Virus record (IMG/VR): IMGVR_UViG_3300049846_000815
Coordinates: 1 to 33,462 of that record
Source: a virus
DNA length: 33,462 nucleotides
Reading direction: 5' to 3' (one strand)
Positions 7,564 to 16,416 of this stretch are shown here, one piece after another. The stretch's first letter is position 1, and the number at the start of each line of letters is the position of its first letter. A program made the translations under genes and the position numbers. The notes under the pieces were generated by a model that had not been told where the DNA came from, did not search any database, and worked only from the letters and a program-made list of their open reading frames with translations.

Positions 7564-7777
7564 TTTAGAACATAAGATGAAATACGAAGCTGGTAATATT
7601 TCTTTCGTTGTTGACGTTAAGAATGAAGCTGGCGAAATCGTTGGTTACAACCACACTTCAATCAGTGCTGTAATGGCGATCAAAGCTATTATTGAAGCTT
7701 CACCAACTAAGGTAGATGATATTCTTTTGCCTTACCTAGAAACTCTTTCTAAACTTATTCCATCCAAGGAAGTTTAG
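7556..7777 (+). CDS. Hypothetical protein of the lysis cassette
   Basis: A 73-residue acidic protein starting with MFDLEHKMKYEAG, with no membrane helix and no motif I recognise. The N-terminal half looks like a short beta hairpin sheet and the C-terminal half like helices. It overlaps the candidate holin gene by eight bases, so it is probably translationally coupled to it. Function unknown. Confidence 0.65.
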   Translation: MFDLEHKMKYEAGNISFVVDVKNEAGEIVGYNHTSISAVMAIKAIIEASPTKVDDILLPYLETLSKLIPSKEV

Positions 7778-12128: not shown

Positions 12129-12217
12129 TGGAAGATCTCGAGGCGATCTTGATGTTGGTTGTGTGTTTGTTTGCGTTGGTGATGTTTAATATTTATCTTG
12201 GTGCTTTATTACCTTGA
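12125..12217 (+). CDS. 30-residue one-pass membrane peptide
   Basis: ATG at 12125 overlaps the preceding stop (ATGATGG). The 30-residue product begins MMEDLEAILMLVVCLFALVM and is almost entirely one hydrophobic helix with an acidic N end. Such peptides in late operons are often holin, antiholin or disruptin-like, but nothing specific can be assigned. Translational coupling to the upstream gene is likely. Confidence 0.5.
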   Translation: MMEDLEAILMLVVCLFALVMFNIYLGALLP

Positions 12218-12237
12218 GCACAAGGAGGTATCGAGCA

Positions 12238-12363
12238 TTGCTGCCCGACCCTCGCATGACACGACCTTGGAATAGTTCAATTGTAAATTATTGTTGTATA
12301 GAAACAAGGTTTAAATTTAAGGAAGGAACTACTGCCCATTACTGGGAAGCATTCCCTCCTTAA
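12238..12363 (+). CDS. Small basic protein at the end of the late operon
   Basis: A TTG-start ORF of 41 residues (MLPDPRMTRPWNSSIVNY at its N end) ending at TAA 12361-12363. It has the strongest Shine-Dalgarno sequence in this area, AAGGAGGT at 12222-12229, eight bases before the TTG. That site has no other obvious use. The final codons overlap the stop of the convergent zinc-finger gene by four bases. Function unknown; its short length leaves the call uncertain. Confidence 0.45.
   Translation: MLPDPRMTRPWNSSIVNYCCIETRFKFKEGTTAHYWEAFPP
12319..12361. terminator. Possible stem-loop between convergent operons
   Basis: AAGGA plus GGAA (12319-12328) can pair with TTCC plus TCCTT (12352-12361), with an inner CCCA/TGGG stem around 12335-12346. 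It lies where the + strand late operon and - strand replication operon meet. It has no convincing T-tract on either side and overlaps the coding end of the 41-residue ORF, so terminator function is weakly supported. Confidence 0.25.
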
Positions 12364-12807: not shown

Positions 12808-13137
12808 TTAAAACGGTACGTCTTCATTAAACATAGGAAACTTGTCAGTTGTTTCATTCTTCGGTAGGATTTCAAAAAAATTGCAACAAACTTCCGTAGC
12901 CCATTGACCCTCGTACTTTCCAGCTTTGATCTTCGATGTACGGACGGTCCCCAAAAGCCTTAATCGGTCGTTTAACGAAATTTTCATGCATTCTTGATGA
13001 AATACCTTAACGGTGACAGAACCAACCCTAGAACCGTCTTTAAACTCGACGAACAAATTCGCCATTGGGCTGCCCTTGTCCCGGCCGTAAATCTTAGGTT
13101 CTGTTTTAACTATTCCAACAATCTCGACTTTATTCAT
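12808..13137 (-). CDS. ssb: Single-stranded DNA-binding protein
   Basis: A 109-residue OB-fold protein. Visible SSB features are the N-terminal strand MNKVEIVGIV, a mid-protein strand and loop VGSVTVKVFHQEC, the following LNDRLRLLGTVRTSK segment, and an acidic C-terminal tip NEDVPF matching the SSB tail that docks partner proteins. It is shorter than bacterial SSB because the linker is brief. It protects single strands during phage replication and probably works with the annealing protein encoded at 21195. A 134-base structured leader precedes it, so expression is likely regulated separately from the upstream genes. Confidence 0.85.
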   Translation of the reverse strand: MNKVEIVGIVKTEPKIYGRDKGSPMANLFVEFKDGSRVGSVTVKVFHQECMKISLNDRLRLLGTVRTSKIKAGKYEGQWATEVCCNFFEILPKNETTDKFPMFNEDVPF

Positions 13138-13142
13138 ACAGC

Positions 13143-13234
13143 ATTATCCCTTTCGTAGATTCAAATTATCCTCAAGGAAACCGCACCGAGGCGAAGTATG
13201 AACCCCGATGCGGAAACACTACGATTTGGATAAT
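13143..13234 (-). promoter_or_regulatory. Structured ssb leader with alternative pairings
   Basis: Read on the - strand: ATTATCC (13234-13228), CGTAG (13223-13219), an 11-bp hairpin CCGCATCGGGG/CCTCGGTGCGG (13213-13203 with 13191-13181, two G-U), GGATAAT (13171-13165), CTACG (13158-13154), and GGATAAT (13149-13143) inside the ssb ribosome binding region (AAAGGGATAAT, ATG at 13137). The first ATTATCC can pair with either GGATAAT. Pairing with the distal copy nests over CGTAG/CTACG and covers the binding site; pairing with the inner copy would leave it free. A -10-like TATTAT overlaps the first element, so it may instead lie at a promoter. Confidence 0.55.
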
Positions 13235-13271
13235 ATGAACTCAATTTTTCTAAACTCAATAACGATTCTTT

Positions 13272-13814: not shown

Positions 13815-14640
13815 TTTTGGTTCCTTTCATAAAATATTCTCCTGCTTCTTCGGCAGCTTTTTTATTTGATTGCGTCTTGTCGAGTTGATTGAGTTGGGCA
13901 TTGGTTACACTAATTCCAGTTCCTGCGAAATGATTTATTTCTGCAAGGTTTGTTAAAATCAAATCAAACGCATGGCGCTTTTTAATAAACCACGAATCAT
14001 TCATTTGCATAAAAGCATTTATTAAATAAGTTGACTTTTTAAGTCCGTGATCTCTGATTAGGGTCTTCGCATTCCCAACCCATTTGCCAGACATTGAAAC
14101 ATTTGTTTTATATTTTGTTTTCCACGCATCGCAATAATGAGCAATCAAAAGTTTAACATCTTCATTCGATTCTGTTTTAACAGAATCATCATTTCGCAAC
14201 GTTCTTTTTTCTTCTTTCTTTGATTCTTTATTCTTATATTCTTTATTCTTATATTCTAGGCGCGCTCTCGGCGCGGCGTTGTCGCGCGCTTGCCGCGCTC
14301 TACGTTGGTCTCTATCTAATGATTCCAACAACTTAGGCAATTCAATTTTCAACTCATTATCAACTCTTTCCCAAGAAAGTAGAGAAAATGTTTGGAAAAA
14401 GTTCAGAATTTCCTCAACTTTTGTTCTGGAAATCCTCAACTTTTGTCTGACCAATCTTTCGGAAAAGCTGAACTTTATATGAACATTTGTATAGGTTTCG
14501 TTCTGGTTTTTAGTCATCTTTTCAGCACACATTTCCAGCAATATAAACCATGCAGCATAACCAAGGTGCCCGAACCGATTCATAGCCTCAATGATCACAG
14601 TGTTCTCATTCGCATTCGTAAAATGTTTGAAATATTCCAT
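13804..14640 (-). CDS. Replisome organiser (origin-binding initiator)
   Basis: A 278-residue protein. The N end (MEYFKHFTNANENTVIIEAM, then GHLGYAAWFILLEMCAEK) is the winged-helix start typical of Lin1244/Lin1753-like phage initiators. Residues about 125-165 are a charged, low-complexity linker with the repeat EYKNKEYKNKE; the C-terminal region (DAWKTKYKTNVSMSGKWVG) resembles DnaD-like tails. It should bind the phage origin and recruit the loader encoded next. The DNA of the linker holds direct repeats beside a GC-rich block, a candidate origin. It is the first gene of the - strand operon and follows a leader terminator. Confidence 0.7.
   Translation of the reverse strand: MEYFKHFTNANENTVIIEAMNRFGHLGYAAWFILLEMCAEKMTKNQNETYTNVHIKFSFSERLVRQKLRISRTKVEEILNFFQTFSLLSWERVDNELKIELPKLLESLDRDQRRARQARDNAAPRARLEYKNKEYKNKESKKEEKRTLRNDDSVKTESNEDVKLLIAHYCDAWKTKYKTNVSMSGKWVGNAKTLIRDHGLKKSTYLINAFMQMNDSWFIKKRHAFDLILTNLAEINHFAGTGISVTNAQLNQLDKTQSNKKAAEEAGEYFMKGTKNEF
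14223..14301. repeat. Iteron-like repeats inside the initiator gene; candidate replication origin
   Basis: ATTCTTTATTCTTAT occurs twice in tandem (14223-14237, 14238-14252) with a partial third copy, making a very AT-rich tract. Immediately beside it (14258-14301) is a strikingly GC-rich block in which GCGCGCT recurs 24 bases apart (14260, 14284), each followed by a related CGC-rich stretch. An easily melted tract next to repeats within the initiator gene is the lambda-type origin layout. The block also encodes the initiator's Arg/Ala and Lys/Glu-rich linker. Confidence 0.45.
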
Positions 14641-15554: not shown

Positions 15555-15926
15555 ATGAAAAATGAAATCAATGAGATCGAAATTAACGGCGAGATCTATG
15601 TGAAGAAATCTGAGGTGTCGCAAAACGCACCAGAAAAAGATGGCATGAAATATTGCATTGTTCGCACTTATTCGGCTGGTGTGTTTGCTGGATATGTTGA
15701 ATCTCGCAATGGACAAGAAGTTGTGATGCGTGATGCGCGCAGAATTTTTTACTGGGATGGCGCAGCTTCATTGTCTCAGCTTGCGATGAGTGGAACATCA
15801 AAACCACAAAATTGTAAATTTCCAGAGGCGGTTGACCGTGTTGAATTACTTCAAGCGATTGAGATTTTGGACGTTACTGAAAAAGCTCAAAAGTCTATCG
15901 CATCTGTTGGCATTTGGAAATGTTAA
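15555..15926 (+). CDS. DUF6948-like phage protein
   Basis: A 123-residue protein. The core KYCIVRTYSAGVFAGYVESR, then DARRIFYWDGAASLSQLAM, later KPQNCKFPEAVD and a C end near EKAQKSIASVGIWKC, matches a small family (DUF6948) common in phage early regions and of unknown function. The frame is open up to 15399, but that extension is a read-through of the tRNA-like element. The ATG at 15555 has AAGG nine bases upstream and is preferred; ATG 15507 is an alternative without a binding site. The next gene starts 10 bases after its stop. Confidence 0.75.
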   Translation: MKNEINEIEINGEIYVKKSEVSQNAPEKDGMKYCIVRTYSAGVFAGYVESRNGQEVVMRDARRIFYWDGAASLSQLAMSGTSKPQNCKFPEAVDRVELLQAIEILDVTEKAQKSIASVGIWKC

Positions 15927-15936
15927 GGAGCTAAGT

Positions 15937-16095
15937 ATGGAAACGGTTTCGAGTGGTAAAGGCTCAGGCTCGGGCTCAGGCTCGGGCTCAGGCTCCGGCT
16001 CCGGCTTCGGCGACGGCTTCGGCGACGGCTCCGGCTACGGCTACGGCGAAGGCTCGGGCTCAGGCTCCGGCTCCGGCTTCGGCGACGGATTGTAA
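15937..16095 (+). CDS. Gly/Ser-repeat low-complexity protein
   Basis: A 52-residue protein made almost wholly of GS, GD and GY repeats after METVSSGK, interrupted by GFGDGFGDG and GYGYGEG. ATG 15937 has AAGGAG seven bases upstream, strongly supporting translation. Upstream in-frame codons inside the previous gene are not part of it. Similar Gly/Ser/Asp/Tyr-rich short proteins occur in phage early regions with unknown role; a flexible or phase-separating peptide is conceivable. The codons use only GGC for Gly in the repeat, unlike the AT-rich surroundings, consistent with expansion of a hexamer. Confidence 0.6.
   Translation: METVSSGKGSGSGSGSGSGSGSGFGDGFGDGSGYGYGEGSGSGSGSGFGDGL
15958..16086. 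repeat. GGCTCN/GGCTTC/GGCGAC hexanucleotide repeat tract
   Basis: A run of roughly 20 six-base units (GGCTCA, GGCTCG, GGCTCC, GGCTTC, GGCGAC, GGCTAC) encoding the Gly/Ser repeats. The block GGCTCCGGCTTCGGCGACGG recurs at both ends of the tract. It is GC-rich against an AT-rich genome and a likely site of slippage and length variation. Confidence 0.8.
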
Positions 16096-16103
16096 CAACT
16101 TTC

Positions 16104-16147
16104 CCCGCAATGGTGCATGGATAAATTTAACTCCGCATGGGCGGGGA
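16104..16147 (+). repeat. Inverted repeat before the zinc-ribbon gene
   Basis: TTCCCCGC just after the Gly/Ser gene and GCGGGGAA near 16140-16147 are perfect 8-base complements. They would form a stem-loop in the mRNA ending about seven bases before the GGAGG site of the next gene, possibly tuning its translation. Confidence 0.4.
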
Positions 16148-16161
16148 ATGAATGGAGGAAT

Positions 16162-16416
16162 ATGAAACTAATAGAGATATTAAATCAATATCGATTTGAT
16201 TTTGATGGAATTTTAGAATGCGAGCATTGCGGATCAAATCAAACAGTGAAAAATGGTTATGACGACACAAATTATCATGTGAATGTTATTCCTAAAATCA
16301 CATGCATTAATTGCAGCAAATGTCGAGATGGAACAATCGGCGATCCACATAATATTGCTGGCGGGAAATTAGTTCACAAAATACCAAAAACAATAGAGGC
16401 GTGGGCTTTTAAATAA
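16162..16416 (+). CDS. Small zinc-ribbon protein
   Basis: An 84-residue protein with CEHC near residues 20-23 and CINCSKC near 50-56, a four-cysteine zinc-ribbon arrangement. The start at 16162 (MKLIEILNQYRFDFDG) is chosen because GGAGGA lies three to eight bases before it; upstream in-frame ATG 16117 lacks a site and falls in the inverted repeat. Function unknown; DNA or protein binding is plausible. It lies in the run of small early genes. Confidence 0.65.
   Translation: MKLIEILNQYRFDFDGILECEHCGSNQTVKNGYDDTNYHVNVIPKITCINCSKCRDGTIGDPHNIAGGKLVHKIPKTIEAWAFK

Follow-up and report, generated by a model that had tools for sequence, protein, structure and literature searches.

We tentatively propose that the 134 nt preceding the ssb gene of this phage form a structured 5' leader that may limit ssb translation, which we regard as the best reading of this region. 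In the finished leader, a helix between elements A and C and an inner helix UCGUAG/CUACGA would enclose a 12-pair hairpin, and the A-C helix would bury the end of the ssb Shine-Dalgarno sequence. Before C is transcribed, A may pair with element B, and once C has been transcribed the closed form is predicted to be favoured by about 4 kcal/mol. The outcome would be ssb output that is kept low or confined to young messages. The elements, the sense-strand bias, and the two exclusive pairings with their calculated order are computational results; we infer that such an RNA is made, that ribosomes have restricted access to it in the cell, and that the two states may be used by timing or by a bound protein, possibly SSB itself.

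The ssb gene and the elements of its leader

The DNA analysed is of viral origin and comprises positions 1 to 33,462 of IMG/VR record IMGVR_UViG_3300049846_000815; this whole stretch of 33,462 nucleotides is called the window. The small operon that includes ssb lies entirely on the minus strand, and its features and those of the leader are as follows.

14640-13804, minus strand: operon gene 1, the replication gene, weakly Lin1244-like
13814-13272, minus strand: operon gene 2, just before the leader
13138..13271, minus strand: leader, the 134 nt that separate ssb from operon gene 2
13230..13259, minus strand: promoter-like TTGAGT-N18-TATTAT, weak, 9/12 matches
13228..13239, minus strand: element A, UUCAUAUUAUCC, with core heptamer AUUAUCC at 13234-13228; overlaps the promoter-like TATTAT
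13219..13224, minus strand: 5' strand of the inner helix, UCGUAG; its minimum-energy partner is CUACGA (P 0.997)
13181..13213, minus strand: hairpin CCGCAUCGGGG-loop-CCUCGGUGCGG, 11-12 pairs including G-U, arms at 13213-13203 and 13191-13181
13160..13171, minus strand: element B, GGAUAAUUUGAA, complementary to A at 11/12 bases; holds the first heptamer copy GGATAAT at 13171-13165
13153..13158, minus strand: 3' strand of the inner helix, CUACGA, partner of UCGUAG
13148..13153, minus strand: ssb Shine-Dalgarno sequence AAAGGG; GAAAGG at the corresponding position of relatives
13143..13149, minus strand: element C, GGAUAAU, the second GGATAAT copy; partner of A, shares bases with the end of the Shine-Dalgarno sequence
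12808..13137, minus strand: ssb, small single-stranded-DNA-binding protein of 109 aa, ATG at 13137
12620-12360, minus strand: operon gene after ssb

All elements named in the preliminary description of this DNA are present where it placed them, with the minus strand as the true 5' to 3' sense. Element C and AAAGGG are placed about 10 nt before the ssb AUG.

The name ssb appears sound for 12808..13137. An HMM of nine SSBs from related phages, with the window protein excluded, ranked this ORF first among the window ORFs (E 2.6e-7; runner-up, E 0.53), and an earlier family HMM had included the window protein. The protein ends in an acidic, DxPF-like tip (...NEDVPF) resembling those of the relatives' SSBs, and the gene lies downstream of the same neighbour as in five related loci (L045, L041, L076, L077, and L103). 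Its Pfam SSB match fell below the cut-off (E 0.12; E 0.009 in its own record), a PHROGs search with the window SSB gave no match, and a single-protein query against 50 related records also gave none, where the family HMM succeeded. The single-sequence AlphaFold model reached a pLDDT of 43, at which a fold search on the model is meaningless. A host taxon for the phage was sought and none was found. Elsewhere in the window, 15790-16165 holds two overlapping ORFs in different frames with Gly-Ser and Ala-rich repeats of low complexity.

The preliminary description had recognised no known riboswitch class in the leader, and Rfam agreed: nothing reached the curated gathering threshold, and the best permissive matches had E values of 5.9-8.2. 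ARAGORN detected no tRNA or tmRNA over the window. Tandem repeats, a sign of a replication origin, did not overlap the leader (the nearest rows start at 14202), and known phages and plasmids gave short chance matches only, the best of which lay beside Escherichia/Aeromonas phage integrase genes (E 0.04). In relatives a 75-80 aa gene precedes ssb; the leader shows no trace of this gene, and the reading as its remnant was rejected.

Fold strength, occurrence among relatives and rival readings

The preliminary claim of a stable structure involving the ssb ribosome-binding region holds for the sense strand. The core (13240-13138) folds with a minimum energy of -36.4 kcal/mol compared with -22.6 kcal/mol for shuffles (z -4.28), and none of 1000 shuffles was as good. 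The longest contiguous stem has 12 pairs on the minus strand versus 4 on the plus strand; the hairpin is confined to the sense strand because of its G-U pairs, and therefore RNA rather than DNA is indicated. A heptamer with its complement twice downstream was obtained in 14 of 5000 shuffles, nested helices of 7 and 5 bp in 143 of 5000, and both jointly in 1 of 5000; a hairpin of at least 11 pairs occurred in 61 of 1500. The leader fold ranks second among 45 gene-upstream regions of the window, several other regions of which fold about equally well. Since the site was selected by eye out of 33 kb, the evidence for non-randomness is only moderate, and the structure is probably, not certainly, under selection. 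Between convergent genes at 12129-12359, the window also contains two strongly folding minus-strand tiles (z about -3.8 and -4.6).

The related set consists of 80 phage loci gathered by terminase alignment. The closest relatives (L002, L019, and L020) share most structural genes with the window and have no ssb at the corresponding place. In at least five relatives ssb lies downstream of the same gene as in the window but has no leader; where measured, it starts 13-15 nt past the 75-80 aa gene. The preliminary description had proposed a covariance-model search for further copies; the model built from the one leader, with the limited reach of a single-sequence model, had no hit besides itself across 1.14 Mb of related loci and none at all in 49 related records. 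An exact-layout pattern likewise had no match in IMG/VR or GTDB genomes. Within the DNA searched, the leader thus occurs in one phage, and therefore no covariation is available among relatives. Near the place in L002 that corresponds to the window ssb, a tRNA-like gene whose anticodon is unclear sits between operon genes (7662-7733; ARAGORN tRNA-???; Rfam tRNA, 51.9 bits).

It is possible, if doubtful, that the leader has no regulatory role and is intergenic DNA, inserted or drifting, whose good folding is accidental. Its restriction to one phage among 1.1 Mb of related DNA is consistent with such an origin, as is the situation in L002, the closest relative, which lacks both ssb and leader at the corresponding place. 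The window has 7 copies of GGATAAT where 6.1 are expected, so the heptamer is not enriched. A search of 1.24 Mb of related DNA gave about 70 instances of the loose layout, defined as nested helices of 7 and 5 bp around a hairpin of at least 9, and a reversed control gave 91, so that about 2 occurrences per 33 kb are expected by chance. Contrarily, an accidental fold does not readily account for the z score of the core, for the rarity of the triple heptamer with nested helices in shuffles, or for the position of the third heptamer copy, which falls exactly on the ribosome site.

A second alternative, which we consider unlikely, is a promoter with operators: ssb transcription would be governed by a regulator that binds the DNA at three sites, A, B, and C, with A overlapping the -10 box. 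Element A does span the end of TATTAT in TTGAGT-N18-TATTAT, A and B match over 11-12 bp, and by coordinate arithmetic the heptamer centres lie 63 and 22 bp apart, or 6.0 and 2.1 helical turns. However, promoter-like sites are below chance in the region (4 versus 8.1 expected), the rest of the window shows no enrichment of GGATAATWTGAA, element C has only seven bases in common, and the reliance of the hairpin on G-U pairs suggests RNA.

The leaders before the replication gene may be a better lead than the ssb leader. In the window, a terminator-like hairpin with a T run behind it (14705-14667, minus strand) lies just upstream of the replication gene start at 14640 and might attenuate the replication operon. 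L002 (shortly before 6001) and L107 (before 2875) also have terminator-like hairpins at this place, unrelated in sequence, and the hairpins of the three sit 18-28 nt before the replication gene start. A structured replication-gene leader with a conserved terminator-like hairpin, for which Rfam gave no match, is shared by L076 (1620-1764), L077 (350-492), and L103 (3108-3255); a hairpin GCAACT/AGTTGC in this leader reads GCAAAG/CTTTGC in L103, with two compensated pairs. In L107 (2723-2875), a nested helix AATCCGG/CCGGATT and the terminator-like AAGGCTTTTGC/GCAGAAGCCTT overlap and are mutually exclusive, a layout that appears antiterminator-like. Seven-nt complementarity between the terminator loop and an upstream element is present in the window (AGTGCAG/CTGCACT; about 14752-14746 and the loop of 14705-14667) and in L002 (ATTGCAC/GTGCAAT; about 5890 and the loop before 6001), and is likely due to chance because both share the self-complementary TGCA.

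Exclusive pairings and access to the ribosome site

As the preliminary description had noted, ATTATCC can pair with either GGATAAT copy, and both the sequence and the folding calculations make the two pairings mutually exclusive. The A-B pairing extends beyond the heptamer, with 11 of 12 pairs between 5'-TTCATATTATCC (13239-13228) and GGATAATTTGAA (13171-13160). In the full leader, the calculated probability is 0.995 for A-C and 0.997 for the inner helix, and imposing A-B raises the minimum energy by about 4.3 kcal/mol and the ensemble energy by about 3.8 kcal/mol. In the growing RNA, A-B stands at 0.999 from the completion of B until C starts to emerge, including the RNA that ends at 13150, and A-C replaces A-B once C emerges. 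The barrier between the two pairings is about 15 kcal/mol by a direct path, a value to be taken as a rough upper estimate.

This order of pairings would suit a kinetic switch, in which nascent A-B pairing leaves the ribosome site free and the finished leader closes the site via A-C, although we consider such a switch quite improbable. If it operates, SSB would be made from fresh messages only, or when a protein, perhaps SSB, holds the A-B pairing. The switch suggested in the preliminary description is not supported so far: A-B is about 4 kcal/mol worse in the full leader, and no relative in the set carries the leader in which compensatory changes might be seen.

The final two G residues of AAAGGG are paired with a probability of about 1 in the full-leader calculation. 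The Shine-Dalgarno sequence thus lies in a stable helix, as in the T4 gene e type, by calculation only. In the model, opening the stretch from the Shine-Dalgarno sequence to the AUG costs about 7 kcal/mol, as opposed to 1.4-5.9 kcal/mol in five related ssb genes. This cost is 7.3 kcal/mol with A and 7.2 kcal/mol in A-less transcripts starting at 13226-13215; A-C is therefore not its sole cause, and a switch that depends on the start site is weakened. Timing of the T4 gene e kind, in which read-through messages with A would be shut and internal-promoter messages without A would be translated, is accordingly very unlikely. Element A supplies the 5' strand of the ribosome-site helix as well as part of a -10-like box, which parallels T4 gene e and related cases (PMC3014915); however, the candidate promoter is weak, and an internal promoter yielding an open message, attractive anatomically, is not supported by the modelled energies.

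A structured leader that limits ssb translation, our preferred reading, is favoured by the fold of the core (z -4.28), the sense-only hairpin with its G-U pairs, the A-C probability of 0.995, an opening cost above that of the relatives, and the joint layout found in 1 of 5000 shuffles. Against it stand the lack of a copy in relatives, the frequency of the layout by chance, the equal cost without A, and the similar folding of other regions. If real, the leader would place a further phage SSB gene under RNA-level control, outside the T4 group and with a layout unlike the gp32 operator, and would offer a small system for testing whether RNA folding is used by phages to time SSB synthesis. At present it is a single leader with a single occurrence.

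Comparison with known regulatory leaders

In T4 and RB69, the gp32 operator begins with a 5' pseudoknot of about 28 nt; the region after it is less structured, exceeds 40 nt, and carries both UUAAA/UAAA repeats and the ribosome site (PMC535899). Like the gene 32 operator (PMC535899), the present structure occupies the leader of a phage SSB message; unlike it, the ribosome site here is inside a nested helix, and no UUAAA/UAAA repeats lie between the hairpin and the ribosome site. Because of these two features we do not file the leader as a gp32 operator. Autoregulation in which SSB binds a leader pseudoknot, formed by A-B across CGUAG/CUACG, and covers the ribosome site merits very little credence: the crossing pairing is possible in sequence and autoregulation of a phage SSB has a precedent (PMC535899), but the full leader prefers the nested fold in a program that allows nested folds only, and an unstructured UUAAA/UAAA stretch that includes the ribosome site is absent from it. 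On the features compared, a likeness to the gp32 precedent invoked in the preliminary description is not supported.

In T4, genes e, soc, 49, and I-TevI carry inhibitory RNA structures at their translation starts (PMC3014915). The ssb leader resembles the e-type leaders in that a predicted long-range helix within the gene's own leader lies over the Shine-Dalgarno sequence and has its 5' strand at a promoter-like sequence (PMC3014915). It differs in that the 5' strand has an additional, competing partner in B, the loss of A does not free the ribosome site in the model, the promoter is only a candidate, and the gene concerned is a replication gene. A study on a Helicobacter pylori type I toxin mRNA describes metastable structures approached by genetics (PMC6733600). 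Both systems have a transient nascent pairing that gives way as the RNA lengthens, with genetics on the H. pylori side and pairings that are calculated only on ours (PMC6733600). By analogy, the working of the ssb leader may be more like that of the T4 inhibitory helices at translation starts than that of the gp32 operator.
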